A DNA stretch of 37,625 nucleotides from Candidatus Blautia merdipullorum. Its GTDB lineage: Bacteria > Bacillota > Clostridia > Lachnospirales > Lachnospiraceae. Position numbers and translations under genes: made by a program. The stretch is taken from NCBI GenBank assembly GCA_019118685.1, contig DWYL01000215.1:1-37625 (forward strand), in the 5' to 3' direction. The notes under the pieces were generated by a model that was not told where the DNA came from, did not search any database, and worked only from the letters and a program-made list of their open reading frames with translations. Position 1 is the first letter of the stretch. Each line of letters opens with the position of its first letter. Positions 4,049 to 29,935 of the stretch are shown piece after piece.

Positions 4049-4113
4049 GCGGCACAGTCTCTGAGGCACGGCAGGAATTTTGAAAGCAGGAGACCGGGAG
4101 GTGGATATAAGGA

Positions 4114-4803
4114 ATGAAGAAAATCGCAGTTGTGGAGGATGAGCCTTTGATGCGTGAGGAACTGGCTTTAATGCTCAGGAAAGCAGGATATGAAGTAGAA
4201 GAGATCCGGGAATTTGACAGAGTTGCGGATCAGCTTGAAATGCTATCCCCGGATCTGGCGGTGCTGGATCTGAATCTTCCGGGTATCAGCGGATTCCAGA
4301 TCTGCCGGGAGATAAAGGGCAGAAGTCCTTTTCCGGTTCTTGTGCTGACCTCCCGGGATCAGATGAAGGATGAACTTCATGCTCTTGAGCTGGGCGCAGA
4401 TGAATATCTGACAAAGCCCTGCCGTAGAGAACGGCTTCTTGCCCGGGTGTCAAATGTTCTGAAACGCTATGAGGGAAGGCAAAATCTTCTGGAAGGCCCT
4501 GGTTTTCTCCTGGACCGGCAGACTTATACGGTATATGTCCATAATCATTCTGCAGTTCTTCCAAGGAATCAGGGAAAACTGCTGGAGACTTTTCTCTCCC
4601 GGGGAGACCGGACGGTGACGAAAGAAGCGCTGTGCCTGGCAGTATGGGGAACCACAGAGTTTATTGATGAAAATGCTCTGCAGGTGAATCTTACCAGGCT
4701 TAAGAAGACCATGACAGGATTGGGTATGACCCAGAAGATCATCCCGGTCCGGGGTATCGGGTATCGGCTGGCTGAGGGGACAGAAGAGAATCGGAAACTT
4801 TGA
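4114..4803 (+). CDS. OmpR-family response regulator, BceR-like
   Basis: Receiver domain (VEDE..DLAVLDLNLPG..LTSR..KP) plus winged-helix C-terminus. Confidence 0.92.
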   Translation: MKKIAVVEDEPLMREELALMLRKAGYEVEEIREFDRVADQLEMLSPDLAVLDLNLPGISGFQICREIKGRSPFPVLVLTSRDQMKDELHALELGADEYLTKPCRRERLLARVSNVLKRYEGRQNLLEGPGFLLDRQTYTVYVHNHSAVLPRNQGKLLETFLSRGDRTVTKEALCLAVWGTTEFIDENALQVNLTRLKKTMTGLGMTQKIIPVRGIGYRLAEGTEENRKL

Positions 4804-4814
4804 AGGGGGATATA

Positions 4815-5900
4815 ATGGAAAAAATAATAAGGAACATAAAACGGAGGGTATCCTGCTTATGCAGATACCTTCCGTGGCTTTTTCTTCTTCTGGGGGTGGA
4901 CGCTATGGCTGCACTTTTGCTCTGGATTTCTGAGGCAGAGGCTTTTGAGGTGCTGCTTCCGATGATCCTCCTTGGGACAGTCTTGCTGTTTACGGGGACG
5001 GCTGTTGTGCTGGGAAACAGAGAACTTAGGAGAGAAGAGGCTTTCCGGGCTTTTTTAGATAATCCGGATCTTATAAAGGAAGAAGATCTGCTCAGGATAG
5101 TCAGTAAGCCTGAGAGGGAGTCGGTCCGCCTGCTGGGAACTGTACTCAGGGAAAAGGATCTGGCATGCAGCAGGGCAAAAGCTGATGCTGAAGACTATGA
5201 AGAATACGTGGAAGCCTGGGCTCATGAGACAAAGACTCCTTTGTCTCTTCTCACGATGGTGCTGGATAACCAGAGAGAGGAAATCCCGGCTCCTGTTGCT
5301 TTTAAGCTGGAATATATCCGCAGCCGGCTTCAGGAGCACATCAGCCAGATCCTTTATTACGCCCGGCTCAAAAGCGGCAGAAAGGATTATTTTTTTGAGT
5401 ATACAGATCTGAAGGAATGCATTGAAGAAGTTCTGGAAGATTATAGTCTGCTTCTGACAGAGAAAAACTTCCAGGTCAGTCTCCAGGTACCTTCTATATT
5501 AGTATTTACTGACCGGAGAGGGATCCGGTTCCTGATCGGACAGATTGTGAGCAATGCAGTGAAATACTGTTGGAATCAGTCTGACGCCTCAGAAAATCCC
5601 GGGAAGGGGACCGGCAAAAACCAGCCAAAGCTTAAGATCACCCTGGAATCCGGGGAAACAAAAGATATTCTGCACATACGGGATAATGGCATCGGAGTAA
5701 AAGAATGCGATATGCCGTACATCTTTGAAAAAGGCTTTACCGGGGATTCCACAGATCCAGAAAAGAAAGCTACAGGAATGGGTCTGTATCTGTCTAAGAA
5801 GATGGCAAATGATCTGAACCTTGGGCTGGAAGCCTGGTCTGAGAGGGGAAAGGGATTTGAGATGAAGATCAGTTTTCCCAAAGTAGAGTCTAAAATTTAA
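4815..5900 (+). CDS. Sensor histidine kinase, BceS-like (intramembrane-sensing type)
   Basis: Two TM segments with almost no extracellular loop, H-box AHETKTPLS, N/G boxes; ATG at 4815 after GGGGGA RBS. Confidence 0.9.
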   Translation: MEKIIRNIKRRVSCLCRYLPWLFLLLGVDAMAALLLWISEAEAFEVLLPMILLGTVLLFTGTAVVLGNRELRREEAFRAFLDNPDLIKEEDLLRIVSKPERESVRLLGTVLREKDLACSRAKADAEDYEEYVEAWAHETKTPLSLLTMVLDNQREEIPAPVAFKLEYIRSRLQEHISQILYYARLKSGRKDYFFEYTDLKECIEEVLEDYSLLLTEKNFQVSLQVPSILVFTDRRGIRFLIGQIVSNAVKYCWNQSDASENPGKGTGKNQPKLKITLESGETKDILHIRDNGIGVKECDMPYIFEKGFTGDSTDPEKKATGMGLYLSKKMANDLNLGLEAWSERGKGFEMKISFPKVESKI

Positions 5901-6561
5901 GCCGCTGAGTGAAAAAGAACTGCCCAAATTTCCCATTGATTCCCGGATTACTCAGGCGGAGAAGAGACTGGGGGCAGACTGCAGAGAATGTGCAGATGAA
6001 AGAATGGTCTGGCAGATACGCCAGTTAAACCAGCGTGTGTTCCGCTTACTTCAGGGGCTGATCATGTTTAAAAAACAGATCTTGGAGGAAGTTGTCTCAT
6101 GCAGGCTGTATACAGCTAACTATCCCCTGCTGCTCCAGCATATTATCCGGGAAGCAGAATTATATCAGCAGACGGTCTCCATGCTGGAGGAAAGAAAATG
6201 TGTTTCAACAGAAAATATCATGGAGACAGAGCTGTTCTGGAACCAGATCATGATGGAGCATGCTTTGTTCATACGGGGGCTTCTGGATCCCACGGAGTGT
6301 GAACTGGTGGAAACAGCGGATACCTTTGCCGGGGATTACTGCCGGCTGCTGGAGGAGGCCAGGAACCAGGACTGCAGAGCTATAAAGGGCCTTACAAGGA
6401 AAACCTTGGAAACTACAAAAAAATACCGGGATTTTAAAGCTGCGGGGACAAAAGGGATTACGGAATGCGATATACGCTCTATTATCCTTCCCCTTCTGGC
6501 GGATCATGTGCTTCGGGAAGCGAATCATTATCTGCGGGTTTTAAAACAGGAAGGGAAATAG
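5887..6561 (+). pseudogene. DUF2935-family protein, apparently 5'-truncated (open frame from 5887; first ATG only at 6004)
   Basis: Frame reads SLKFKPLSEKELPKFPIDSRITQAEKRL..MVWQIRQLNQRVFRLLQGLIMFKKQILEEVVSCRLYTANYPLLLQHIIREAELY..FWNQIMMEHALFIRGLLDPTE..IRSIILPLLADHVLREANHYL; the expected N-terminal segment is absent. Confidence 0.65.
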
Positions 6562-13523: not shown

Positions 13524-15959
13524 CTAGCCCATAAGGACTTCTACTGTATATTTTTTTATACCTTCTGATGGAAGGAGGCAGGTGTTTTCCACAGGTTTTC
13601 CGTTGACTTTTACAGAACGGATTCCTTTCTGTACATGGTCTGGATTCTGTACATGAATGTGATATTCAGCTCCCCGGTACTTCCGGATCACAGTAAATTC
13701 TTCCAGATCAGAGGGAATGCAGGGATCGATCTCCAGGCCCCGGAAGGAGGGACGGATGCCCAGAATATACTGAGACACATTTACAAAAGTCCAGGCTGCC
13801 GTACCGGTAAGCCAGCTGTTTTTGGCTTCTCCATGTTTCGGAGCGTCTTTTCCTGCGATCATCTGAGAGTAAACATAAGGTTCCGTACGGTGGATCTCAC
13901 TGATATCCTCAATATAGGCGGGACAGGTCCTGCGGTAGATCTGGAATGCCCGGTCTCCCCGGCCGATCCGTGTCTCAGCAATGGATACCCAGGGATTGTT
14001 GTGACAGAAAATGCCGGCGTTTTCTTTGTATCCCGGGGGATAGGAAGAAATCTCTCCCAGATTTACATAATATTTTGTGTAAGCAGGCTGCTGAAGGACA
14101 ATCCCATATTTAGTGTCCAGCCGTTCCTTCACAGAATCCAGAGCTTTTTTAGCATGTCCTTCTCTAATGCCGATATCAGCCAGGACACAGAAGCCCTGAG
14201 GCTCGATATATATTTTCCCTTCTTCACATTCATCAGATCCTACCTTTTCTCCGAAGGCGTCGTATGCCCGGATAAACCATTCTCCGTCCCAGCCTGCGTC
14301 CAGTACGGTCTGGTACATTTTTTCCACTGCCTCGTCAGCACGGAGCCCTTCTTCTTTCTGTCCGGTAAGCCGGCAGATCTCAGCGTATTCCCGTCCGTAT
14401 TTTACAAACATTCCTGCAATGAATACAGACTCCGCGACCGGTCCTTCTGACGGACCGAAGGTCTGGAAAGATTCCCCGGGCTCTCTTGAGAAACAGTTCA
14501 GATTCAGGCAGTCATTCCAGTCTGCCCGTCCGATGAGAGGGAGTCCATGAGGGCCAAGGTGAGTCAGAGTATAGTTAAAGGAACGCCGCAGATGCTCCAT
14601 CAAAGGCTGAGCCAGAGAAGGATCGTTGTCGAAATCCACCATTTCTTCCAGAATCGTCAGATCTCCTGTTTCTTTAATATAAGCTGCGGTCCCGGCAATG
14701 AGCCAGAGGGGATCATCATTAAAGCCGCTTCCGATATCGGAATTTCCTTTTTTGGTCAGAGGCTGGTACTGATGATAGGCACTTCCATCTTCAAACTGTG
14801 TGGCCGCAATATCCAGGATCCTTTGACGGGCTCTGTCCGGGATCAGATGTACGAATCCCAGAAGATCCTGACAGGAATCCCTAAAGCCCATGCCTCTGCC
14901 GGTTCCTGATTCGAAGTAAGAAGCAGACCGGGACATGTTAAAGGTAACCATGCACTGATACTGATTCCAGATATTCACCATCCGGTCCAGTTTTTCATCT
15001 TTGCTTTCTACAGAATAGATGGAAAGGAGATCCTCCCAGTACTTTTTCAGAGCTGCCAGAGCTTCCTCTGCCTGACGGTCTGTGGAAAAACGTTTCATGG
15101 CTTCCCGGGCTCTGTCCTTTTTGATCACGTTGGGAGCTTCCCATTTGTCTTCGTAGGGATTTTCACTGTAGCCCAGGATGAAGATAAAGCTTTTGGATTC
15201 TCCGGGAGCCAGTGTGACTTTCAGATGATGGGAGCCAATGACTGCTCCTCCGCTGGCCACAGAATTTCCGGCAGTGCCCTCCCAGACATTTTTTGGATGT
15301 TCAATGCTTCCATAAACCCCCAGAAAATCATCACGGCTTGTATCGAAGCCGTCAATTTCCGCGTTCACCGTATAATAGGCAAAGTGGTTCCTGCGTTCTC
15401 TGTATTCTGTTTTGTGGTAGATTTCGGAGCCGTGGATTTCCACCTCTCCCAGGCTCAGATTCCGCTGAAAATTTGTGGAGTCGTCTACTGCGTTCCAGAA
15501 ACAGAATTCTACATAAGAGGTAAGGTCCAGTGTCTCTATAGAGGCATTGTCGTTTGTCAGCACGAAACGGTTTATCTCGCAGGATTCATGTAGAGGAACA
15601 AAGGCTGTGAGATCTGCCCGGATCCCGTTTTTAGAAGCAAGAAATCTGCTGTAGCCCAGTCCGTGGCGGCACTCATAGGAGTCCAGGGGAGTTTTTACAG
15701 GCTGCCATCCCGGGGTCCATACCGTGCCCCGGTGCTTGATAAAGTAGTACCGGCCGTTGGTATCCGCAGGCACATTGTTATAGCGGTAGCGGGTAAGGCG
15801 GAGGAGCTTTGCGTCTTTATAAAAGCTGTAGCCTCCGCAGGTGTTAGAGATCAGGGAGAAAAAGTTTTCGTTTCCCAGGTAATTGATCCATGGAAGGGGA
15901 GTAGCGGGAGATGTGATGACATACTCTTTGTCCTGATCATTAAAGTATCCGAATTTCAT
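13524..15959 (-). CDS. GH94 glycoside phosphorylase, cellobiose phosphorylase-like
   Basis: [64 protein letters not shown] start typical of cellobiose phosphorylases; catalytic region [10 protein letters not shown]; start at 15959 with GGAGG RBS. Confidence 0.9.
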
Positions 15960-15994
15960 GTGAATTTCCTCCATTTATTAAAAATCTTTACTTC

Positions 15995-16657
15995 TTAAAG
16001 GCTGATATTCAAAGCAGCTTCTTCTCTTTTCTGTTCTTCTGCTTTTTCCAGCTCTTTTTCATAGGGTTCAAATACCTTTTTAAATACAAAAGACTGGCAG
16101 TAAGCAATGAAGGCAAATCCGAAAAGTACCATCATCAGCTTCATGGGAGCCAGGAAGACGCAGAGGAAAAGCACCATAGCATAGATGAGCAGGAGAGCCA
16201 GGGTTGCCTTTACATTGCTCATCATCAGACAAAAGGCATTGATCAGAGTCTGCTTCGTGGAATTGTTAAATCTGGCGATCAAAGGAAAGGTGTAAGTAAA
16301 AGTAAAAAGCCAGACAATCGCTCCCACAGCCATGAGTCCGGTAATCACTGCTGCCGGGATCCCTCCCAGGTTAAACCAGAACGCCAGATTAAAAAGAATG
16401 ACAGCTCCGATCACAAAAAGGACGGCAAAAGCAGCAGTGCCGGATTTTAAGTTTTTACGGAATTCCTTTATATAGGTACGCACCAGGTACCCGTATTCTC
16501 CCCGGGCTTCTCTCAGCGTTACATAATATAGAGAAGAAAGGGCTGTGCCAATGGTAATCACCGGCAGACAGGAAATAAGAAATACTAGATTCAGTACCAC
16601 AAAATTACAGAGTGTGTTGATAAAATCAAGCACAGGGTTAGCCAGCGTTGTTTTCAT
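15995..16657 (-). CDS. YesL/DUF624-family membrane protein
   Basis: Multi-TM 220-aa protein with FINTLCNFVVLNLVFLISCLPVITIGTALSSLYYVTLR start; located beside an LplABC-type transporter. Confidence 0.85.
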   Translation of the reverse strand: MKTTLANPVLDFINTLCNFVVLNLVFLISCLPVITIGTALSSLYYVTLREARGEYGYLVRTYIKEFRKNLKSGTAAFAVLFVIGAVILFNLAFWFNLGGIPAAVITGLMAVGAIVWLFTFTYTFPLIARFNNSTKQTLINAFCLMMSNVKATLALLLIYAMVLFLCVFLAPMKLMMVLFGFAFIAYCQSFVFKKVFEPYEKELEKAEEQKREEAALNISL

Positions 16658-16915: not shown

Positions 16916-17863
16916 ATGAAAAAAGGCAATACTGCTGTAAAGAGCATGCCTCAGAGCAGAACGGCAAAAAAAAGCGGCTTCAAATATTTTCTCTGGATTC
17001 TGCCGTTTCTGATCCTGGCGTTTTTGTTTTCATATTTTCCGCTGCATGGATGGATCTATGCGTTTTTTGATTACAAACCGCCCAGAAGCCTTGCAGACTG
17101 CGAATTCGTAGGACTGCAGTGGTTCAAGATGCTCTTTACCAACGAAACACAGGTGGCACAGCTGATTCAGGTTATGAAGAACACATTTGCGATGAGTTTA
17201 CTGGGAATTGTGACTTCAATCCTTCCTCTTGGGTTCGCGATTTTCCTGAATGAGATTAAGTGCAAAAAGTTTAAGTCGTTTGTCCAGACATTTACGACTT
17301 TGCCCAACTTTATAAGCTGGGTGCTTGTTTATTCAGTGGCGTTCGCATTGTTTTCTTCAACCGGTATGGTAAACAGCCTGCTGGAGAATGCGGGGATCAT
17401 AACGGAACCCATCAAGTTCCTGGACAGTGATGCCCATACATATCTGTGGATGCTTCTGTGGAACACATGGAAAGGCCTTGGATGGGGAGCGATTGTTTAC
17501 CTGGCATCCATCGCAGGAATCGATCAGGAGCTTTACGAGGCGGCCAGCATTGACGGCGCGGGACGCTTTCAGCTGATGAGGCACATTACGCTGCCGGCTC
17601 TGCTGCCAACATTCTTTATTATGCTGATGATGGCGATCTCCAATTTCCTGAATAATGGCCTGGATCAGTACTTTGTATTCCAGAACTCATTTAACAAGGA
17701 GCATATTCAGGTTCTGGATCTGTATGTTTACAACATCGGTATGACAGGCAGCAGCTATTCACTGGCAACTGCCATCAGTATGCTCAAGAGTATTATCAGC
17801 GTGGTGCTTCTGTCCATATGTAACGTGGTATCCAAGAAGACACGCGGAGAATCCATTATTTAG
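16916..17863 (+). CDS. Carbohydrate ABC transporter permease (LplB-like)
   Basis: EAA loop YEAASIDGAGRFQLMRHITLPALLPT; RBS GGAGGT. Confidence 0.93.
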   Translation: MKKGNTAVKSMPQSRTAKKSGFKYFLWILPFLILAFLFSYFPLHGWIYAFFDYKPPRSLADCEFVGLQWFKMLFTNETQVAQLIQVMKNTFAMSLLGIVTSILPLGFAIFLNEIKCKKFKSFVQTFTTLPNFISWVLVYSVAFALFSSTGMVNSLLENAGIITEPIKFLDSDAHTYLWMLLWNTWKGLGWGAIVYLASIAGIDQELYEAASIDGAGRFQLMRHITLPALLPTFFIMLMMAISNFLNNGLDQYFVFQNSFNKEHIQVLDLYVYNIGMTGSSYSLATAISMLKSIISVVLLSICNVVSKKTRGESII

Positions 17864-17883
17864 AAAGGAGGAAAGAGAGAAAG

Positions 17884-18795
17884 ATGAATTTTAAAAAGAA
17901 AAAACTCACTGCCGGGGACGTGTCCTTTAACATTATCAACTATGCAGTTTTCGGGATTTTTACTTTGATCTGTATCTATCCTTTCTATTATATGGTGATC
18001 AATACCTTAAGCGCCAATGACCTAAGCGCTGCAGGTGCGATCAATTTCCTTCCAAAAGGAATTCACTTTGAAAATTATAAGGCACTTTTGGAACTGAAAG
18101 GACTTGGCACAGCAGCTCTTGTTTCTGTGGGAAAGACAGTCATTGGAACCGCGCTTACCGTTATTGCCACAGCTTTTCTGGGCTTTATGTTCACGCAGGA
18201 AAAGATGTGGAAGAGAAAGTTCTGGTACAGATTCATTGTGATCACGATGTACTTTAACGCCGGACTTATTCCAATGTTTATCACAATGAAAAACCTGCAT
18301 CTGACCAATACTTTCTGGGTATATGTGATCCCCACGATCATCCAGCCCTTTAATATCATCCTGGTGAAGACTTATGTGGAATCTCTTCCAAAGGCTCTTC
18401 AGGAGGCGGCGGAGATCGACGGAGCAGGAATCTTTAAGATCTTCTATAAGATCATCCTTCCTACATGCACCCCGATCCTGGCAACTGTGGCAATCTTTGC
18501 CGCTGTAAACCAGTGGAACAATTACCAGGACACCCTGATCTATATTACAGATCAGAAACTGTATTCCCTTCAGTATTTATTGTATACTTACATCAACCAG
18601 GCAAGCTCCCTTGCGGCAATGGTGCGGAACAGCGGCGCCGGCGCGGTAAGTGCCGCGGCTTTGGCTACCCAGCAGACTGGAACTTCCATACAGATGACTG
18701 TATCGGTAGTGGTAGTGCTTCCTATTCTCTGCATCTATCCCATGTTCCAGCGGTTCTTTGTAAAAGGTATTATGATTGGTTCTGTTAAGGGATGA
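17884..18795 (+). CDS. Carbohydrate ABC transporter permease (LplC/YtcP-like)
   Basis: EAA loop LQEAAEIDGAGIFKIFYKIILPTCTPILAT; C-terminus VKGIMIGSVKG typical of LplC. Confidence 0.93.
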   Translation: MNFKKKKLTAGDVSFNIINYAVFGIFTLICIYPFYYMVINTLSANDLSAAGAINFLPKGIHFENYKALLELKGLGTAALVSVGKTVIGTALTVIATAFLGFMFTQEKMWKRKFWYRFIVITMYFNAGLIPMFITMKNLHLTNTFWVYVIPTIIQPFNIILVKTYVESLPKALQEAAEIDGAGIFKIFYKIILPTCTPILATVAIFAAVNQWNNYQDTLIYITDQKLYSLQYLLYTYINQASSLAAMVRNSGAGAVSAAALATQQTGTSIQMTVSVVVVLPILCIYPMFQRFFVKGIMIGSVKG

Positions 18796-18870
18796 GAAAC
18801 TTATGAAAAACAGAATTATAACTTTACCATTTGATGTTTGGTATATTAAAATTAAGAAAAGGAGCGTATT

Positions 18871-20664
18871 ATGAAAAAGAAATTAATCAGTGCTTTACTG
18901 TGTACTGCAATGGCGGCATCTCTTCTTGCCGGCTGCGGCGGAGGAGAAAAGAAAGCCGAAAACACAGGATCGAAAGATGGAAACTACGAAGACTTTATTA
19001 CGGTAGACGTATATGATGAGTTTGCTAACTATCAGGGGATCCAGAGCGGATGGTTTGCAAAGATCGTAAAGGATAAGTTCAATATGGAATTGAACATCAT
19101 CGCCCCGAATGTAGCCGGCGGCGGACAGACCCTGTATCAGACCCGCTCTGCGGCAGGAGAACTGGGAGATCTGGTCCTGATCAATACTTCCAATGGAAAA
19201 CTGAATGATGTAGTGGAAGCAGGGCTTGTTATGGACGCTACAGATCTGATGGAAGGAAAAGATATTGTAGCCAACTATGGAGACGCCATTGAGGTGACCA
19301 ATGAAGGACTCTCAGAAGAAGGCATGTTTGCGTTCCCCAACTCTGTATCCTCAGATGCCGCAACAGAGCCCAGCGAAGGTCTTGAACCTACCTTTGGACC
19401 ATATATCCGCTGGGATTATTACAAACAGCTGGGATATCCGGAGATGAAAAATCTGGATGATTTCCTGGATGTTCTGGAGGATATGCAGAAAATGGCAAGA
19501 GAGCAGGAAGGCTCTGATGATATTTATGCCATTTCCCTGTTTAAAGACTGGGACGACAATATGATGAACAATGCAAAACAGCCATGCTGTATGTATGGAT
19601 TTGATGAAGTTGGATTTGTTCTTTTAAGCGCAGATGGAACGGAAAAACAGAGCATCATTGATGATGATTCAATCTATGTAGATGTTCTGAATTTCTTCTA
19701 TGAGGCAAACCAGAGAGGTCTTGTAGATCCGGATTCTACCACACAGAACTATGATACCTGGTCTGCAAAATATACAAACGGAAAAGTACTCTACTGCCCA
19801 TGGCCATGGGTAGGCCAGAACCTGTATAATACGGCAGAGAACAAAGAAGCCGGCAGAGGCTTTATGTTTGCTCCTGTTGAAGATATGAAGATCTTCTCCT
19901 ACGGAAGCTGTCCGGAAGGCAACTCAACTCAGATCATTGCTATCGGCAGCAATGCGGAAGATCCCCAGAGAATGGCTGACTTCATTGACTGGCTTTATTC
20001 ACCGGAAGGAATCCGTCTGAATGGACAGGCAAACGGCGCCGCTGGTATTGAAGGCCTTACATGGGAAATGAACGAGGAAGGCAAGCCGGTCCTTACAGAC
20101 TTTGGCAAACAGGCGCTTCCTATGAATGATGTGGAAGTACCGGAAGAGTATGGCGGCGGCAACTGGAAAGACGGCGTATCTGCCCTGAACTTTAAGACAG
20201 TGAACCTGGAAGACATTGATCCGGCAACGGGAGAGGCATACGACTACCAGACCTGGGAGACTACCATTGCCAATAATCAGACACCTCTGGATAAAGACTG
20301 GGCAGAGCATATGGGCGCTTCCTCTACTATGGAGTATCTGGAAAACAACAATATGCTTGCAGTAGCTCCGGGCTCCAGTTATGCAGTACCGGAAGCTGAT
20401 TCCAATATTACTACCATCCGTGGACAATGCAAGGCAACAGTTATCGACAATTCCTGGAAGATGATCTTTGCTGAAAATGATTCTGACTTTGACAGTCTCC
20501 TTAAGAACATGCAGGATACTGCAGAAGGACTGGGCTATGCAGATGTCCTTGAAGTTGATATGCAGAATGCAGATGACTGGACTGCAGCAAGACAGGAATC
20601 CGCAGAAAACTATCCGGAAGGCAAGACAGCAGAAGCTGAGACTACAGAGACACCAGCTGAATAA
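18871..20664 (+). CDS. Extracellular solute-binding lipoprotein (LplA/YtcQ-like)
   Basis: Lipobox LLAGC; ~600-aa SBP immediately downstream of two permeases. Confidence 0.92.
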   Translation: MKKKLISALLCTAMAASLLAGCGGGEKKAENTGSKDGNYEDFITVDVYDEFANYQGIQSGWFAKIVKDKFNMELNIIAPNVAGGGQTLYQTRSAAGELGDLVLINTSNGKLNDVVEAGLVMDATDLMEGKDIVANYGDAIEVTNEGLSEEGMFAFPNSVSSDAATEPSEGLEPTFGPYIRWDYYKQLGYPEMKNLDDFLDVLEDMQKMAREQEGSDDIYAISLFKDWDDNMMNNAKQPCCMYGFDEVGFVLLSADGTEKQSIIDDDSIYVDVLNFFYEANQRGLVDPDSTTQNYDTWSAKYTNGKVLYCPWPWVGQNLYNTAENKEAGRGFMFAPVEDMKIFSYGSCPEGNSTQIIAIGSNAEDPQRMADFIDWLYSPEGIRLNGQANGAAGIEGLTWEMNEEGKPVLTDFGKQALPMNDVEVPEEYGGGNWKDGVSALNFKTVNLEDIDPATGEAYDYQTWETTIANNQTPLDKDWAEHMGASSTMEYLENNNMLAVAPGSSYAVPEADSNITTIRGQCKATVIDNSWKMIFAENDSDFDSLLKNMQDTAEGLGYADVLEVDMQNADDWTAARQESAENYPEGKTAEAETTETPAE

Positions 20665-20707: not shown

Positions 20708-20726
20708 TTTGCAGGAGGTACAGATT

Positions 20727-22748
20727 ATGATTTATAATAAAATAAAGAAGATCCTATACGGAGGAGATTATAATCCGGAACAATGGCCGAAAGAAATCTG
20801 GAAAGAAGATATGAGACTTTTGAAAGAAGCCCATATTGACACCCTGACCTTAAACGTGTTCAGCTGGGCGGCTCTTCAGCCTTCTGAGGAGGAGTATGAT
20901 TTCTCAAGGCTGGATGAGATCATGGATATGGTTAAGGAGAATGGTTTTCAGGTGTGTCTGGCTACTTCTACCGGAGCGCATCCTGCCTGGATGGCGAAAA
21001 AATATCCGGATATCCTCCGCAGGGATTTTAACGGAATGAAACGTAAATTCGGGGGCAGACATAATTCCTGCCCAAACAGTCCCACCTACAGGAAGTATTC
21101 CCTGCGTCTGGCCCAGAAGCTGGCCCGGCGTTATAAAGATTACGACAATATTATCGCATGGCATATTTCTAATGAGTACGGTGGAGAGTGCTACTGTGAG
21201 AACTGTGAGAAGGCTTTCCGGGTCTGGCTGAAGAAAAAATATAAGACTCTTGAGGAACTGAACAGAGTCTGGAATACGGCCTTCTGGGGACATACCTTTT
21301 ATGATTGGGAGGAGATTGTCCTTCCTAATCTGCTCAGCGAGCATTTTGAAGAGAACCGGAGCCAGTTTCAGGGGATCACTCTGGACTATAAAAGATTTAA
21401 TTCAGAAAGCATCCTGGAATGCTGCCGGCTGGAGTATGAGGCTATTAAAAAGATCACGCCTCACATCCCCATTACAACTAATCTGATGGGATTTTATAAA
21501 GGCCTGGATTATAAGATGTGGGCAAAATATCTGGATGTGGTATCCTGGGATAATTATCCTGCCAATGAGGACTCACCGGCAATGATTGCTATGAGCCATG
21601 ACCTTATGAGAGGCATCAAGGGAGGACAGCCATTCCTGCTTATGGAACAGACACCAAGTGTGACCAACTGGCTTCCTTATAATGCCTTGAAGCGTCCGGG
21701 AGTGATGAGACTTTGGAGTTATCAGGCGGTGGCTCACGGGGCAGACGCAGTGATGTTTTTCCAGATGCGGCGTACAGTGGGAGCATGTGAGAAACTCCAT
21801 GGAGCAGTGATCGATCATGTGGGAACCAATCAGACAAGGGTTTACCGGGAGGTTCAGGCTTTGGGAGCTGAGCTGGAAAAGATAGGACAGGAGACCCTGG
21901 GAGCAGTGACAGAAGCAAAAGTGGCTTTGTATTTTGACTGGGATAACTGGTGGGCCGCTGAGTGTTCCGCAGGCCCCAGCTGTGAACTGAAGTACAAAGA
22001 AGAGGTCCTGAACTATTATGAAGCCTTTCACAGCCTGAACATTCCTGTGGATATTGTGGGACCGGAAGATGACCTTGGCAGCTATAAAGTTCTGGCAGCT
22101 CCTCTTTTGTATATGACAAAGACAGGATATGATGAAAAGATCCGGAAGTTTACACAGAATGGGGGAATTTTTATCACTACATTCTTCAGTGGAATCGTGG
22201 ATGAACATGACCTGGTGATCCTGGGAGGATATCCCGGAAGGCTCCGGGATATTCTGGGCATCTGGGTGGAAGAAGAGGATGCTCTTCCCTCCGGGACGGA
22301 AAACAGTTTTGTATACAGAGGAACACGGTATCCTGCCAGACTTATCTGCGACTTGCTCCATTCAGAAGGGGCGGAGGTTTTGAGTACCTATGAGTCTGAT
22401 TTTTACGCAGGCATGCCGGCTGTGACGGTAAACCATTTCGGAAAAGGCCGGGGCTACTATGTGGCAGCCCGTTCCGGCAAAGCCTTTTACAGGAAATTCC
22501 TTGGAGATATCTGTGAAGAGGCAGGTATCCAGCCTGTTATTTTGCCTCAGGAAGGATTGGAAGCTGCAGAGCGGAAAAATGAAAACGGCCGGTTTTTGTT
22601 CCTGCTGAACCATGGAAACCGTGAACTGGAAGTAAAAGTCCGGGAAGGGGGAAAGGATCTGATCAGCGGAGAGGCATATTCTCCGGGCGGCAGGATCTTC
22701 CTTGAAGCAAAAGGCGTGAGGATTCTTAAGATTGAGGAAAAGATTTAA
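20727..22748 (+). CDS. Beta-galactosidase, GH42 family
   Basis: ILYGGDYNPEQWP; HISNEYGGECYCENC with acid/base motif; LLMEQTPSVTNW nucleophile region; RBS GCAGGAGG, ATG at 20727. Confidence 0.93.
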   Translation: MIYNKIKKILYGGDYNPEQWPKEIWKEDMRLLKEAHIDTLTLNVFSWAALQPSEEEYDFSRLDEIMDMVKENGFQVCLATSTGAHPAWMAKKYPDILRRDFNGMKRKFGGRHNSCPNSPTYRKYSLRLAQKLARRYKDYDNIIAWHISNEYGGECYCENCEKAFRVWLKKKYKTLEELNRVWNTAFWGHTFYDWEEIVLPNLLSEHFEENRSQFQGITLDYKRFNSESILECCRLEYEAIKKITPHIPITTNLMGFYKGLDYKMWAKYLDVVSWDNYPANEDSPAMIAMSHDLMRGIKGGQPFLLMEQTPSVTNWLPYNALKRPGVMRLWSYQAVAHGADAVMFFQMRRTVGACEKLHGAVIDHVGTNQTRVYREVQALGAELEKIGQETLGAVTEAKVALYFDWDNWWAAECSAGPSCELKYKEEVLNYYEAFHSLNIPVDIVGPEDDLGSYKVLAAPLLYMTKTGYDEKIRKFTQNGGIFITTFFSGIVDEHDLVILGGYPGRLRDILGIWVEEEDALPSGTENSFVYRGTRYPARLICDLLHSEGAEVLSTYESDFYAGMPAVTVNHFGKGRGYYVAARSGKAFYRKFLGDICEEAGIQPVILPQEGLEAAERKNENGRFLFLLNHGNRELEVKVREGGKDLISGEAYSPGGRIFLEAKGVRILKIEEKI

Positions 22749-22765: not shown

Positions 22766-24250
22766 ATGACAGAACAACAGGAAAAAGAATATCTGGAAGA
22801 GATCCACAGAGTTGCAAAAGGGGGACCTTATACTCCGGACTGGAATTCTCTGTCCCGGCTGGAACCTCCTCTGTGGTTCAGAGAGAGCAAATTCGGGATC
22901 TTTATCCACTGGGGGCTGTACAGTGTTGCAGCTCATGCAAATGAGTGGTACTCCAGGAATATGTATATAAAGGAAAAAGAAGAATGGGAATATCACAGAA
23001 AGACCTTTGGTGAACATACAAAGTTTGGCTATAAAGATTTTATCCCTATGTTTACAGCGGAAAAATTTGATCCTCAGCAGTGGGCGGAGCTTTTCAGGGA
23101 AGCAGGAGCAAAGTATGTATTTCCAGTGGCAGAACACCATGACGGATTCCAGATGTATAAAAGTGAAATTTCAAAATTCAATACTTGGGATATGGGACCT
23201 CATAGGGATATCCTGGGAGAACTGAAGACAGCTGTGGAAAATCAGGGGATGACATTCTGCACTTCTTCCCACCGGGCAGAGCACTGGTGGTTCATGAGTC
23301 ATGGAAGAGAGTTTGACAGTGATGTGAAGGAACCTATGAAAAGAGGAGATTTCTACTGGCCGGCGATGCCGGAGCCGGATGAGGCGGATCTTCAGAGCCG
23401 TCCTTATCCTTCCCGGGAATTTCTGGATGACTGGCTGCTGCGGACCTGCGAGATCATAGACCGGTATCAGCCTTCTCTTCTTTATTTTGACTGGTGGGTT
23501 CAGCATGAAGCCTTTAAGGAGCCCCTTCAGACTCTTGCCGCTTATTATTACAACCGGGGGGCCCAATGGGGAAAGAAAGTGGCCATTTGTTATAAGCATG
23601 ATGCTATGATGTTCGGAAGCGGCATCCTGGAAGTGGAAAGAGGCGCTCTGGCAGAGGCCAAGCCGTATGTGTGGCAGACAGATACTGCCATTGCAAAAAA
23701 TTCCTGGTGCTATACAGATACTTTGGAGTATAAGACCAGCGGACAGATCATCCGTACCTTGATCGAAGTGATCAGCAAGAATGGGAACCTGCTTTTGAAT
23801 GTAGGACCTAAAGGAGACGGCACTATTCCTTCCGAGGACGCCCGGATCCTGGGGGAGATCGGCCGGTGGATGGAAAAAAACGGAGAAGGAATATATGGCA
23901 GCAGGCCCTGGCGCAGATCCGGAGAAGGAAAAGTACAGATCCGGGAAGGACAGTTTACAGATAATGAAGAACTGCCCTATACAAAAGAGGATATTCGATT
24001 CACTGTAAAGGGAGACAGCATCTATGGGTTTATTATGAAATTCCCAAAGGACGGACAGGTAACGATCCGCTCATTGGCGGACTCAGAGGATCAGAACCGG
24101 GCGGAATTTCACGGGCTGATCCGGGAGGTAAGCCTGCCGGGATATAAGGATGCCCCGCTGACCTGGACAAAGGACCGGAGGGGCCTTCATCTGACAGTTA
24201 CTGGAGTAGAGACAGAGCTTCCGGTGGCAGTTAAGATCCAGGTGAAATAA
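22766..24250 (+). CDS. Alpha-L-fucosidase, GH29 family
   Basis: KFGIFIHWGLYSVAAHANEWYSRNM; YVFPVAEHHDGF; LLYFDWW nucleophile region; LLLNVGPKGDGTIP. Confidence 0.93.
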   Translation: MTEQQEKEYLEEIHRVAKGGPYTPDWNSLSRLEPPLWFRESKFGIFIHWGLYSVAAHANEWYSRNMYIKEKEEWEYHRKTFGEHTKFGYKDFIPMFTAEKFDPQQWAELFREAGAKYVFPVAEHHDGFQMYKSEISKFNTWDMGPHRDILGELKTAVENQGMTFCTSSHRAEHWWFMSHGREFDSDVKEPMKRGDFYWPAMPEPDEADLQSRPYPSREFLDDWLLRTCEIIDRYQPSLLYFDWWVQHEAFKEPLQTLAAYYYNRGAQWGKKVAICYKHDAMMFGSGILEVERGALAEAKPYVWQTDTAIAKNSWCYTDTLEYKTSGQIIRTLIEVISKNGNLLLNVGPKGDGTIPSEDARILGEIGRWMEKNGEGIYGSRPWRRSGEGKVQIREGQFTDNEELPYTKEDIRFTVKGDSIYGFIMKFPKDGQVTIRSLADSEDQNRAEFHGLIREVSLPGYKDAPLTWTKDRRGLHLTVTGVETELPVAVKIQVK

Positions 24251-24273: not shown

Positions 24274-24972
24274 ATGAGTACGACTATTTTATTTACGGGG
24301 GACAGTATTACAGACGGGAACCGGTATAAAGAGGAAAAGGACCGGGGAGACCTGAACCATCAGATCGGGCACAGCTATGCTTATGTGATCAACGCCCTTC
24401 TGGGCAGCAGATACCCGGAAAGGGATTTCCGGTTTCTGAACCGGGGGATTTCCGGGAACCGGATCATCGATCTGTATGCAAGGATGTATGAGGATATGAC
24501 AGAACTGAAGCCGGATATTGTGAGTATTCTTGCAGGAGTCAATGACGGCCCCCAGGCTGAACATGCATACCATGCTACAGGAAGAGAAAAGTATGGGACC
24601 CTGTACCGTATGATGCTCCGGGAACTGAAACAGGAGCTGCCTGAGGTGAAGATCATCCTGTGCGAACCATTTATAGGACAAAAAGGACCGGTATATGACA
24701 GCAATTTTGAAAGATGGAAGTCCTGTATGGAAGGTTATCAGGAAGAGGTCCGTATAATCGCGGAGGAGTTTGGAGCTGTGTTCGTGCCTCTTCAGGAATG
24801 CTTTGACCAGGCATGTGAAAAGCAGGATACAAAATACTGGATCTGGGACGGAATTCATCCTACAGAGAACGGTCATGGACTGATCGCAAGGCAATGGCTG
24901 AAGTACGCCTCAGAGCTTTTGGAGATTCCCCGGGAAAGAAAAATGTACGGTATTCCGAAGGAGTCTTTGTAG
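24274..24972 (+). CDS. SGNH/GDSL-family hydrolase (likely carbohydrate esterase); C-terminus replaced at a junction with GH3 sequence
   Basis: Blocks I TGDSITDGNR, II GISGNR, III AGVND, V DGIHPTENGH; last ~14 codons are out-of-frame GH3 DNA. Confidence 0.88.
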   Translation: MSTTILFTGDSITDGNRYKEEKDRGDLNHQIGHSYAYVINALLGSRYPERDFRFLNRGISGNRIIDLYARMYEDMTELKPDIVSILAGVNDGPQAEHAYHATGREKYGTLYRMMLRELKQELPEVKIILCEPFIGQKGPVYDSNFERWKSCMEGYQEEVRIIAEEFGAVFVPLQECFDQACEKQDTKYWIWDGIHPTENGHGLIARQWLKYASELLEIPRERKMYGIPKESL

Positions 24973-25331
24973 GCTACCGGTATAACGACAGCTTCCACAT
25001 TTCTCCTCAGTTTTGTTTTGGACACGGGCTTTCGTATACAAGCTTTGAATACAGAACTCCGGAACTGATCCAGGAAGAAGGAGAAAGATATGTCTGCTGT
25101 ACTGTAGTTAATGCCGGCGAAGTGGAGGGAAAGGAAACCGTTCAGATTTATCTGGCCCCCTTAGAGAGAAAGGCAGAAGAGCCGGTGCAGCAGCTGAAAG
25201 GATTTGAAAAAGTAACATTAAGGCCGGGAGAAGAGAAGAGGATAAAGATCCGGTTAGAAGAAAGTACAGAAGGAATGGAGATAAGGATCGGAAGCTCATC
25301 AAGAGACACCAGGCTGACCATCAGACCATAA
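24930..25331 (+). pseudogene. Truncated GH3 beta-glucosidase remnant (C-terminal fibronectin III-like region only)
   Basis: Frame reads PGKKNVRYSEGVFVGYRYNDSFHISPQFCFGHGLSYTSFEYRTPEL..VVNAGEVEGKETVQIYLAP..VQQLKGFEKVTLRPGE, typical of GH3 C-termini; catalytic domains absent. Confidence 0.88.
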
Positions 25332-25422: not shown

Positions 25423-26157
25423 TCAGCTTACAGATCTGCGCACCGCATTATCCTGGAAACGAAAATAGTCCGGCCGGTGCCGGGACTGGGTAAACTCAAA
25501 CATGACCCCGTCGCTGTTATAAGTATGACTGGTGATCACAGCCAGGCAGTTGTAGTCATTCACATCTAATTCCAGATATTTCTCATCGATCTGTGTGATT
25601 TTTTCTACGGTCATCACCCGCTTGCTGTTTACAATGGTCATGTGGAGGGTGTTTTCCAGATATTCATAAATAGAATTTTCGGCAATTTCCGGAGTCAGGC
25701 CGCAAGCAGCGCTTTTCAGAAAATAGTTGTGATTGATGATCAGAGGTTTTTCGTCTAAAAAATGGAGACGCTGAATATAATATAATTCAGAACCCACCGG
25801 GAAGCCTGTCCGCCTGGAGATTTTCTCGTCGGCGGTAAGCTCCATGAACTGAAGGACTACGGAACGGCCTTTTTTATGATTGCGGATAGAAGACTCCTTA
25901 AAAGATTCGATACCGCCGATGGTATAGGCCGCCTGTTCCACAGGCCGATAGATATTCCGGACACCTTTTCCCTGCATGGTCTGGACATAGCCGTCCATGA
26001 CCAGACGGCTCACTGCCCGGCGGATTGTGTTGCGGGAGCAGTTATAAGACTGTACCAGCTGATTTTCGGAAGGGAGCAGCTCCTGATAGGCATATTCTTC
26101 CTCTTCTATTTTTTGTTTTAAATCTTTGTAAATAGTTTCATACTTACTTTTCGGCAT
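25423..26157 (-). CDS. treR: GntR-family transcriptional repressor, TreR-like
   Basis: wHTH YKDLKQKIEEEEYAYQELLPSENQLVQSYNCSRNTIRRAVSRLVMDGYV plus UTRA domain; divergent from trehalose PTS. Confidence 0.88.
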   Translation of the reverse strand: MPKSKYETIYKDLKQKIEEEEYAYQELLPSENQLVQSYNCSRNTIRRAVSRLVMDGYVQTMQGKGVRNIYRPVEQAAYTIGGIESFKESSIRNHKKGRSVVLQFMELTADEKISRRTGFPVGSELYYIQRLHFLDEKPLIINHNYFLKSAACGLTPEIAENSIYEYLENTLHMTIVNSKRVMTVEKITQIDEKYLELDVNDYNCLAVITSHTYNSDGVMFEFTQSRHRPDYFRFQDNAVRRSVS

Positions 26158-26177
26158 ACTATGATCACGTCCTGTCT

Positions 26178-26284
26178 TGTTTAAACATCTCATGTTTTCA
26201 TTATATAAAAAAAATTGAAAAAGTCAAGAAAACAATGTTGACATGTTTAAACAAGTGTGCTATTTTATACTTGTTCAAACAAGT
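26178..26284. promoter_or_regulatory. Divergent treR/treP promoter region with three palindromic operator candidates
   Basis: TGTTTAAACA at 26178-26187 and 26244-26253; ACTTGTTCAAACAAGT at 26269-26284; -35 TTGACA 26238-26243, -10 TATTTT 26261-26266. Confidence 0.8.
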
Positions 26285-26308
26285 TCGTGAAAAGAAGGAG
26301 GTACAAGC

Positions 26309-28273
26309 ATGGCAAAATATACAGATGACGTCAAGGCATTGCTGGAGCTGATCGGCGGAAAAGAGAATATTGCGGCAGTGTCTCACTGTATGACAAGAAT
26401 GAGATTCGTTCTTGCAGACGAAAAGAAAGCAAACGCAAAGGAAATTGAAAAGCTGAAAAGTGTAAAGGGAACCTTTACCCAGGCAGGGCAGTATCAGGTA
26501 ATCATCGGAAACGATGTATCTACTTTTTATAATGAGTTTACTGCCTATGCGGGGATTGAAGGTGTGAGCAAAGAGGCGGCCAAACAGGCGGCTAAGACCA
26601 ATCAGAACCCGATCCAGAAGATCATGAGCAACCTGGGAGAGATTTTTGCTCCCATTATCCCGGCTCTTATCTGCGGCGGTCTTGTACTGGGCTTCCGTAA
26701 TGTGATCGATGCCATTTATTTCTTTGACAATGGAACCAAAACGATCGTTGATATTTCTCAGTTCTGGGCAGGAGTGGACAGCTTTCTGTGGCTCATCGGT
26801 GAAGCCGTATTCCACTTATTGCCCGTAGGCATTGTCTGGTCTATTACCAAAAAAATGGGAACCACCCAGATCCTTGGTATTGTATTAGGTCTGACACTGG
26901 TATCTTCCCAGCTTCTTAACGGCTTCAGTGTGGCTTCAACCCCGGCGGATCAGATACCATACTGGGATTTCGGATTTGCCAAGGTAAATATGATCGGTTA
27001 TCAGGGACAGGTTATCGCAGCCATGATGGCAGGTTTTGTACTGGTATACCTGGAAAAGTTTTTCCGGAAGATTTGTCCGGCGGTGGTCAGTATGATCGTA
27101 GTTCCGGTCTGCTCTCTGGTGCCGGCAGTATTTATCGCACATATGGTAGTAGGCCCCATCGGCTGGACCATTGGAAACGCTATTGCAGACGTGGTTTACG
27201 CAGGTCTGACTTCTAACATCCGATTTGTATTTGCAGGAATCTTCGGATTATTATATGCGCCTATCGTAATGACAGGTCTCCATCATATGACAAACGCTAT
27301 TGACTCTCAGCTGATCGCAGGTCCCAGCAAAAGCACCATCCTGTGGCCCATGATCGCACTGAGCAACATCGCACAGGGATCTAGTGTGCTGGCTATGACA
27401 GTTCTTCAGAAGAAAAATGAGAGAGCTCAGCAGGTCAACGTTCCTGCATGTATTTCCTGCTACCTGGGCGTAACAGAGCCGGCGCTCTTCGGCGTAAACT
27501 TAAAATACGGATTCCCGCTGGTTTGCGGTATGATCGGTTCTGCCTGCGCAGCAGTGATCTCTGTAGGCTTTGGAGTGGAAGCTCTGAGTATCGGTGTTGG
27601 CGGCCTTCCGGGTATCTTGTCTATTAAGCCAGAGTATTACCTGATCTTCCTCCTGGCTATGGCTGTAGCGATCGTAATTCCTTTTGCACTGACATTTATC
27701 GTAGGAAAGGCAAAATTATCTGCTGCAGACAGACTGGGAGAAGACTACGGAGAGGAGTCTCAGGTTGTTGAAGAGGTACAGGGACCGGCGGCACAGACAG
27801 AAGAAGCAGCAGAACCTCTCACAGAATTAAAGGCCGGACTTACCGGTAAGGTAATTCCTCTGGATGATGTTCCGGATGATGTGTTTTCACAGCATATTAT
27901 GGGCGACGGCGTTGCCATTGAGCCTGAAAATGATACCGTAGTAGCCCCTGCAGACGCAAAGGTAGGAGTAGTTATGGCAGACTCCGGACATGCCTGTGGT
28001 CTGATCTTTGCGAATGAGATGGAACTGCTGATTCATGTAGGAGTAGATACCGTTGATATGAACGGAGATGGATTTGAGCTTCTTGTAAAAGAAGGAGATC
28101 AGGTAAAACAGGGACAGCCCCTGATACGTTTTGATAAGGAAAAGATCAAAGCGGCAGGTCATCCTTATGTGACTGTATTTATTGTTACCGAGGAAGGACA
28201 GGCTAAGAATATCCAATACCTTACAGGTATGGAAGCAGAGGCAGGAAAGACACCGGTTATCAAGTTTGAGTAA
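26309..28273 (+). CDS. treP: Trehalose-type PTS transporter EIIBC fused to EIIA
   Basis: EIIB ISHC-type site AAVSHCMTRMRFVL; EIIC of glucose/sucrose superfamily; C-terminal EIIA (HIMGDGVAIEP..LLIHVGVDTV); followed by treC-like gene. Confidence 0.9.
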   Translation: MAKYTDDVKALLELIGGKENIAAVSHCMTRMRFVLADEKKANAKEIEKLKSVKGTFTQAGQYQVIIGNDVSTFYNEFTAYAGIEGVSKEAAKQAAKTNQNPIQKIMSNLGEIFAPIIPALICGGLVLGFRNVIDAIYFFDNGTKTIVDISQFWAGVDSFLWLIGEAVFHLLPVGIVWSITKKMGTTQILGIVLGLTLVSSQLLNGFSVASTPADQIPYWDFGFAKVNMIGYQGQVIAAMMAGFVLVYLEKFFRKICPAVVSMIVVPVCSLVPAVFIAHMVVGPIGWTIGNAIADVVYAGLTSNIRFVFAGIFGLLYAPIVMTGLHHMTNAIDSQLIAGPSKSTILWPMIALSNIAQGSSVLAMTVLQKKNERAQQVNVPACISCYLGVTEPALFGVNLKYGFPLVCGMIGSACAAVISVGFGVEALSIGVGGLPGILSIKPEYYLIFLLAMAVAIVIPFALTFIVGKAKLSAADRLGEDYGEESQVVEEVQGPAAQTEEAAEPLTELKAGLTGKVIPLDDVPDDVFSQHIMGDGVAIEPENDTVVAPADAKVGVVMADSGHACGLIFANEMELLIHVGVDTVDMNGDGFELLVKEGDQVKQGQPLIRFDKEKIKAAGHPYVTVFIVTEEGQAKNIQYLTGMEAEAGKTPVIKFE

Positions 28274-28285
28274 GGAGGATTTTCC

Positions 28286-29935
28286 ATGGCAGATTTTAAG
28301 AAAAGCGTTGTGTATCAGATATATCCCAAGTCCTTTTATGACAGTAACGGAGACGGACTGGGAGATTTAAGAGGTGTAATAGAAAAGCTGGATTATATAA
28401 AGGAACTGGGTGTGGACTACATCTGGATGACGCCGTTTTTTGTATCTCCTCAGAAAGACAATGGATATGACGTAGAGGATTACTATAACATTGATCCCAG
28501 ATACGGCACCATGGAAGACGTAGAAGAGCTGTCACGGGAAGCCGAAAAAAGGGGTATCCGCCTGATGTTTGACATGGTGTTCAACCATACCTCTGACAGG
28601 AATCAGTGGTTCCAGAAAGCTCTGGCAGGAGATCCCAAGTACAAAGATTTCTATATCTTTAAAAAAGGACCAAAGCCGGGAGTTCCTCCAACCAACTGGG
28701 AGAGCAAGTTCGGCGGAAATGCCTGGGAATATGTAGAGAAGTTTGACGAGTATTACCTTCATCTTTTTGATGTATCTCAGCCTGACCTGAACTGGGACAA
28801 CCCGGAAGTAAGAAAAGAAGTCCAGAATGTGATTAAATTCTGGATGGGAAAAGGGATCAAGGGCTTCCGTTTTGATGTGGTAAACCTGATCAGTAAGGGA
28901 GAATTTGAAAACGATTACGAAGGGGACGGCAGAAGGTTTTATACCGACGGTCCCAATATCCATAAGTATCTCCGGGAACTGAACGAAGCCACTTTCGGAA
29001 CAGACGCAGAGATCATCACCGTGGGAGAGATGTCCAGTACCACCATGGAAAACTGTTATCAGTATGCAAACGAGGACGGTAAAGAATTGTCCATGGTTTT
29101 CAGCTTCCACCATCTGAAGGTTGACTTTATGGGAAATGAGAAGTGGGTCATTGTTCCCTTCGATTTCCAGAAGCTGAAAAAAATCCTCTTTGACTGGCAG
29201 GTGAACATGGGAAAACACCATGCCTGGAATGCTGTATTCTGGTGCAACCATGATCAGCCGAGAGTGGTTTCCAGATTTGGAAATGTGGAAAAATACTGGA
29301 AAGAATCTGCCAAAATGTTGGGAACTGTGATCCACTGCCTCAGAGGAACTCCTTATATTTACCAGGGGGAGGAACTGGGAATGACCAACGCCGGATTCAC
29401 AGATATTTCTCAGTATAAAGATGTGGAGAGCCTGAATCATTTCCGGATTCTTCAGGAGAAGGGCTTGACGGAGGAAAATGCTTATCAGATCCTTCAGATC
29501 CATTCCAGAGACAACAGCCGGACCCCGATGCAGTGGACCAGCGGAGAAAACGGCGGATTCACCACAGGAGAACCCTGGATCCAGGTAAATAAGAATTGCT
29601 CCTATATTAATGCGGAGGCAGAGCTTCAGGACGAAGACTCTATTTTCCATTACTACCGGAAACTGATCGAACTAAGGAAAAAGTATGATGTGATCGCTTA
29701 TGGAGATCTGAAGCCTTTAGATGAGAAAAATCCTTCCGTTTTTGCTTACGAGAGAGAATATCAGGGAGAGAAGATGCTGGTGATCTGCAACTTCTACGGC
29801 AAGAATACAACATGGGATTCAGAGACAGAGCTGGGAGAGTACCAGTGCGTTCTGAGCAATTATGAAGAGCACAGCATAGTGGACAGCAGGATAGACCTAA
29901 AGCCTTATGAGGCAGTTGTGCTGTATAAGAAATAA
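28286..29935 (+). CDS. treC: GH13 alpha,alpha-phosphotrehalase (trehalose-6-phosphate hydrolase)
   Basis: KKSVVYQIYPKSFYDSNGDGLGDLRGV; GFRFDVVNLISK; NHDQPRVVSRFG; gene context with PTS and TreR. Confidence 0.92.
   Translation: MADFKKSVVYQIYPKSFYDSNGDGLGDLRGVIEKLDYIKELGVDYIWMTPFFVSPQKDNGYDVEDYYNIDPRYGTMEDVEELSREAEKRGIRLMFDMVFNHTSDRNQWFQKALAGDPKYKDFYIFKKGPKPGVPPTNWESKFGGNAWEYVEKFDEYYLHLFDVSQPDLNWDNPEVRKEVQNVIKFWMGKGIKGFRFDVVNLISKGEFENDYEGDGRRFYTDGPNIHKYLRELNEATFGTDAEIITVGEMSSTTMENCYQYANEDGKELSMVFSFHHLKVDFMGNEKWVIVPFDFQKLKKILFDWQVNMGKHHAWNAVFWCNHDQPRVVSRFGNVEKYWKESAKMLGTVIHCLRGTPYIYQGEELGMTNAGFTDISQYKDVESLNHFRILQEKGLTEENAYQILQIHSRDNSRTPMQWTSGENGGFTTGEPWIQVNKNCSYINAEAELQDEDSIFHYYRKLIELRKKYDVIAYGDLKPLDEKNPSVFAYEREYQGEKMLVICNFYGKNTTWDSETELGEYQCVLSNYEEHSIVDSRIDLKPYEAVVLYKK

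Follow-up and report, generated by a model that had tools for sequence, protein, structure and literature searches.

How did the end of an esterase gene come to consist of DNA from a GH3 gene? In the window (the whole stretch of 37,625 nucleotides from Candidatus Blautia merdipullorum that was analysed here), an SGNH/GDSL esterase gene runs out of frame into the 3' end of a GH3 gene, in the middle of a set of genes for carbohydrate use (Table 1). An earlier note on this DNA, made from the sequence alone, had read the arrangement as a deletion scar. Open reading frames, Pfam matches and the identity of the 3' part to GH3 proteins bear out the out-of-frame fusion; the gene order in relatives changes the account of what was lost.

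Table 1 Coordinates of the features at and around the scar
Feature	Position	Strand	Evidence and remarks
GH94 phosphorylase, probable cello-oligosaccharide phosphorylase	13524-15974	-	Pfam Glyco_hydro_94, 2e-170
DUF624 (YesL-like) membrane protein	15995-16657	-	Pfam PF04854, 2.7e-16
ABC sugar permease, permA	16916-17863	+	Pfam BPD_transp_1
ABC sugar permease, permB	17884-18795	+	Orthologues in the clusters of relatives
Putative ABC substrate-binding lipoprotein (SBP)	18871-20664	+	Position and a weak NCBIfam substrate-binding match
GH42 beta-galactosidase	20709-22748	+	Pfam Glyco_hydro_42, 3.5e-155
GH29 alpha-L-fucosidase	22766-24250	+	Pfam Alpha_L_fucos, 5.3e-100
SGNH/GDSL esterase	24274-24972	+	232 aa; ends ...LLEIPRERKMYGIPKESL; stop TAG 24970-24972
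Deletion junction	24915-24930	+	Relatives on both sides compared codon by codon
GH3 C-terminal remnant, Fn3-like domain	24915-25331	+	GH3 residues ~560-697; natural stop TAA 25329-25331 kept
Hairpin 3' of the GH3 stop	25349-25406		Fold -35.5 kcal/mol, z = -4.8 versus shuffles; then CUUUUGAU
Trehalose operon beyond the hairpin	25423-29935	treR (-)	GntR-type treR-like regulator, EIIBC-Tre PTS with EIIA domain, phosphotrehalase treC

Two genes joined out of frame

The catalytic domain of the esterase is complete, from the start of the GDSL domain to the C-terminal D-x-x-H block: the protein matches the Pfam GDSL lipase/esterase profile (PF13472, 8.9e-25) over profile positions 1-177 of 178, and both GDSIT and DGIHPTENGHG are present. 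Its best relative, in Mediterraneibacter agrestimuris (locus L013), is 73% identical over residues 4-216. The predicted C-terminal peptide, ...EIPRERKMYGIPKESL, departs from that of an ordinary esterase in its last ~14-16 codons, which are GH3 DNA read out of frame; about 14 novel residues had been counted previously. The stop codon was indeed supplied by GH3 sequence, although it is a TAG lying out of frame within that sequence and not the stop of GH3 itself. Comparison with 12 homologues showed an end that is naturally variable, and the esterase presumably still works, its new tail being harmless.

The overlapping frame reads ...FGDSPGKKNVRYSEGVFVGYRYNDSFHISPQFCFGHGLSYTSFEY... and, as had been claimed, remains open to the natural GH3 stop, over 145 codons without an internal stop. 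This remnant matches the Fn3-like domain of GH3 C termini (PF14310, 7.3e-13) and neither the N-terminal catalytic barrel (PF00933) nor the (alpha/beta)6 domain (PF01915); the intact homologue in L055 carries all three. Over 138 residues it is 61% identical to the C terminus of the GH3 protein of genome G189 (697 aa) and 54% identical to that of genome G211 (689 aa), both from other Lachnospiraceae-like genomes, and its matches to the C termini of ~690-aa GH3 proteins in general (54-61% identity, E 1e-49 to 1e-53) show that its GH3 identity is far beyond chance. It begins at about residue 562 of 697, which agrees with the loss of some 80% of the gene proposed earlier. Six intact homologues share 37 invariant positions, and the remnant retains every one; in a tree it has a short branch and falls among the GH3 genes of clusters of this type (support 0.998). 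Because of these retained residues and the short branch, the loss was probably recent.

A stand-alone Fn3-like gene was considered and rejected. In about 790 genome look-ups, strong matches sat in GH3 frames of ~690-830 aa, the exceptions being the window itself, congener G004 (where a deletion left a longer remnant) and G424 (in which the frame begins at a contig end). The genome of the window itself has eleven other matches to the remnant, each within a large open frame and at most 45% identical.

At the join, GCTTTTGGAGATTCC is compatible both with an esterase C terminus (LLEI) and with a GH3 motif (A-F-G-D/E). On one side, LLEI resembles the C termini of homologues (LLEISGK, MLDIR, LLGIS and VLNIS), so the sequence would be esterase-derived to about 24927; on the other, intact GH3s have A-x-hydrophobic-G-E-F-P-G, which A-F-G-D-(S)-P-G fits, and the GH3 part would thus begin between 24915 and 24921. 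The junction had been placed at 24925-24940; it lies slightly upstream, at ~24915-24930. Within it, GCTTTTGGAGATT fits both parental frames, which suggests a short shared homology as left by recombination at a short direct repeat, with breakpoint and repeat length not fixable from relatives this diverged (54-73% identity).

Beyond the natural GH3 stop, the long, strong hairpin is probably the original operon terminator of the cluster, bidirectional and common to the convergent treR. The trehalose operon to which treR belongs is convergent on the GH3 remnant.

Gene order in relatives

In relatives, GH3 is separated from the esterase or transporter genes by three others, those for an AraC-type response regulator (RR), a sensor histidine kinase (HK) and a YicI-type GH31 alpha-xylosidase. 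GH3 follows GH31 and is full length where intact (689-710 aa). The earlier view that GH3 had stood directly after the esterase and had lost its 5' part alone (~1.7 kb) does not hold against this order; in M. agrestimuris an alpha/beta-hydrolase gene is additionally present in the interval, and the deletion comes to ~7.7-8.7 kb.

In the L013 locus of M. agrestimuris, permA, permB, SBP, GH42, GH29 and esterase are colinear with the window at 72-88% identity (85% for permA, 88% for permB, 72% for SBP, 76% for GH42 and 74% for GH29), and DUF624 is 72% identical over 108 residues. There the esterase is followed by the alpha/beta-hydrolase (338 aa), RR (-), HK (-), GH31 and GH3. Genome G211 (L055) has the order GH94 (-), DUF624 (-), SBP, RR (-), HK (-), GH31, GH3; its SBP is 64% identical to that of the window (for which no Pfam match was found), and it has, at the same place, an orthologue (77-79% identity) of the GH94 that in the window marks the left edge of the ancestral cluster. 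Congener G005 (L140) carries GH42, DUF624, permA, permB, SBP, RR, HK, GH31 and GH3 (710 aa) in the same relative order, with permeases 74-80% identical to those of the window, as in L141 and L058, and in G423 (L126) and G420 (L127) RR, HK, GH31 and GH3 again lie together. RR and HK are present in L013, L055, L140, L126 and L127.

In the window, the next cluster element after the esterase is the 3' fifth of GH3, on the strand and at the position that an internal deletion predicts. Inspection of syntenic loci, which had been suggested as a check, yields a full-length GH3 downstream in cluster relatives, but with three genes intervening. No single genome was found that combines GH42-GH29-esterase with a complete GH3: M. 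agrestimuris shows the order, but there GH3 itself is broken at about residue 334.

One further locus of this cluster type, in genome G262 (L056:178-1557 and 4005-6322), has GH42, RR, HK and GH31 apparently broken into several short ORFs and a full-length GH3; it appears to be either another decaying copy or the product of sequencing errors.

A probable single internal deletion

We consider it highly probable that a single internal deletion within a xylogluco-oligosaccharide cluster explains the esterase-GH3 scar. The ancestral order would have been GH94 (-), DUF624 (-), permA, permB, SBP, GH42, GH29, esterase, perhaps the alpha/beta-hydrolase, RR (-), HK (-), GH31 and GH3, closed by the terminator. 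The deletion would have fused the esterase, at its 3' end, to GH3 codon ~562, with a loss of about 8.7 kb on the L013 layout, or of about 7.7 kb had there been no alpha/beta-hydrolase. Both regulators, GH31 and 80% of GH3 (~560 codons) would have gone, and what is left of GH3 would be a pseudogene fragment from which the esterase takes its out-of-frame TAG. A short shared sequence such as GGAGATT, with a predicted length of about 7-13 bases, would most likely have served for illegitimate recombination or replication slippage. In the loss of several internal genes, the out-of-frame fusion of the ends and a junction that fits both parents, the locus is like ordinary bacterial deletion-scar pseudogenes formed by illegitimate recombination at short homologies; nothing sets it apart from them except that the same target gene was apparently broken independently in two relatives. 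The mechanism is ordinary genome decay, and the principle is already well known.

GH31 alpha-xylosidase, RR, HK and intact GH3 are all absent from the cluster in the window, and we searched for them elsewhere in its genome. The RR query gave no match at E<=1e-45, and neither HK (best 35%) nor the 5' part of GH3 (best 41%) has a close copy. One YicI-like GH31, 56-57% identical to the cluster GH31s, is apparently split over two contig ends (C217:3-1724 and C183:1-525; L109 and L110) and has DUF624, two other GH31 genes and a distant ABC transporter as neighbours. It was rejected as a relocated cluster gene: the cluster GH31s share 66-84% identity among themselves, and each of them shares 55-58% with it. 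Because it is equally distant from all of them and lies in a different cluster, it is a paralogue, one that might partly compensate for the loss. The idea that the missing DNA resides on another contig was likewise discarded, as the searches with GH31, HK, GH3 and RR gave paralogues only.

These searches bear on the remaining doubt, the assembly: the true cluster could be intact and the junction the result of misjoining or collapse. The assembly is a draft (362 contigs, completeness 99.85%, contamination 3.68%), and one GH31 gene is apparently split across contig ends; an artefact is nevertheless very unlikely, because the missing genes were not found elsewhere in the assembly and a join made by chance would not have hit upon the right downstream gene, and in the right orientation. 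At most ~13 bases are shared at the join, which would be shorter than the k-mers usual in assembly, and a comparable scar exists in the single-contig genome of G004.

A slimmer chance attaches to insertion or shuffling, by which a transporter-GH42-GH29-esterase block would have moved beside an already truncated GH3. The esterase was found in only 1 of 19 other congeners searched, at 34% identity, and several relatives have clusters without the GH42-GH29-esterase part, both of which would fit such a move. M. agrestimuris, however, has the same block in the same cluster, upstream of RR-HK-GH31-GH3, and because of this arrangement a single deletion suffices.

Least probable of all is that the GH3 fragment, or the esterase with its 14-residue tail, is a working product kept by selection: the uninterrupted frame, the full set of invariant residues and the open GH3 3' fragment of G004 would suit it, but a recent deletion accounts equally well for the absence of decay, the fragment is without the catalytic N-terminal domain, the scar has no usable start codon and no internal promoter match, and the fragments of the window and G004 differ in length and partner gene. 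No in-frame ATG, GTG or TTG occurs near the junction except ATG 24894, inside the esterase, so independent translation of the remnant is unlikely; a promoter scan of the region gave no match. The GH3 remnant as a whole is probably not translated.

Function of the cluster

By its gene content, the window resembles the remains of a xylogluco-oligosaccharide utilization cluster. In Ruminiclostridium cellulolyticum, the locus Ccel_2451-2457 and its neighbours encode a characterized cytoplasmic xylogluco-oligosaccharide pathway. It starts with Gal42A, after which Xyl31A and Glu3A take turns on XXXG; according to a legend in the same paper, the cellobiose phosphorylase of R. cellulolyticum was yet to be identified (PMC4780118). 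All of the classes found there (GH42, GH31, GH3, a sensor with an AraC-type regulator, and an ABC transporter with two permeases) occur in intact relatives of the window. The GH31 of these relatives scores 1215 bits against the NCBIfam alpha-xylosidase equivalog (cutoff 606), and its closest solved structures are of the E. coli YicI type. The clusters considered here differ from that of R. cellulolyticum in the addition of GH29, the SGNH esterase, DUF624 and GH94. The genome of the window differs further: the ABC transporter (16916-20664) and GH42 are present, whereas the sensor, the regulator, GH31 and most of GH3 are missing. A literature search returned nothing specific on gut xyloglucan clusters or on a general precedent.

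Judging from their families, GH29 would take off fucose and the esterase acetyl groups, and cellobiose or cello-oligosaccharides would be the substrates that GH94 phosphorolyses. Import of oligosaccharides and stripping of fucose, acetyl and galactose are probably still possible, and the dedicated alpha-xylosidase, the beta-glucosidase and inducible control, and with them the dismantling of the backbone, would be lost, unless paralogues elsewhere cover for them. We predict that this cluster by itself does not enable the strain to complete the breakdown of oligosaccharides of xyloglucan, a plant hemicellulose. Two genes also change annotation, one to a GH3 fragment and the other to an esterase with a foreign tail.

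Breaks in other genomes

Together with breaks in two other genomes, the scar offers a small, testable case of the decay of a carbohydrate-use cluster in gut Firmicutes. It is possible, if doubtful, that gut Lachnospiraceae are losing this cluster over and over, each time by a different and independent event that strikes GH3 (an esterase-GH3 deletion, a GH94-GH3 deletion and insertion of an IS1380-type element); the genomes are too few to call GH3 preferentially lost. Were this so, selection on the last steps of the pathway would seem to be relaxed or negative, and the outer, side-chain-removing half kept in this strain could reflect a cross-feeding specialization. The three breaks would be separate events because their breakpoints differ.

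In G004, a congener with a complete single-contig genome, position 12111/12112 (L129:11722-12795) is where the 3' end of GH94 (-) directly meets GH3 residues 470-696 (+). The GH94 piece comprises 130 aa and is 77% identical to GH94 of the window, and no YicI-like GH31 was found in the G004 genome (best 28%). Here a cluster of the same type has suffered a separate and larger deletion, in which nearly all of it went.

M. agrestimuris was also tried as a source of an intact GH3 end, and failed. Its GH3 (L111:1-420, the end of L013) follows its homologues to residue ~334, and the frame ends at 355 aa; next comes an ORF that encodes a transposase domain of the IS1380 type (PF13701, 1.1e-11) and extends to the end of the contig.
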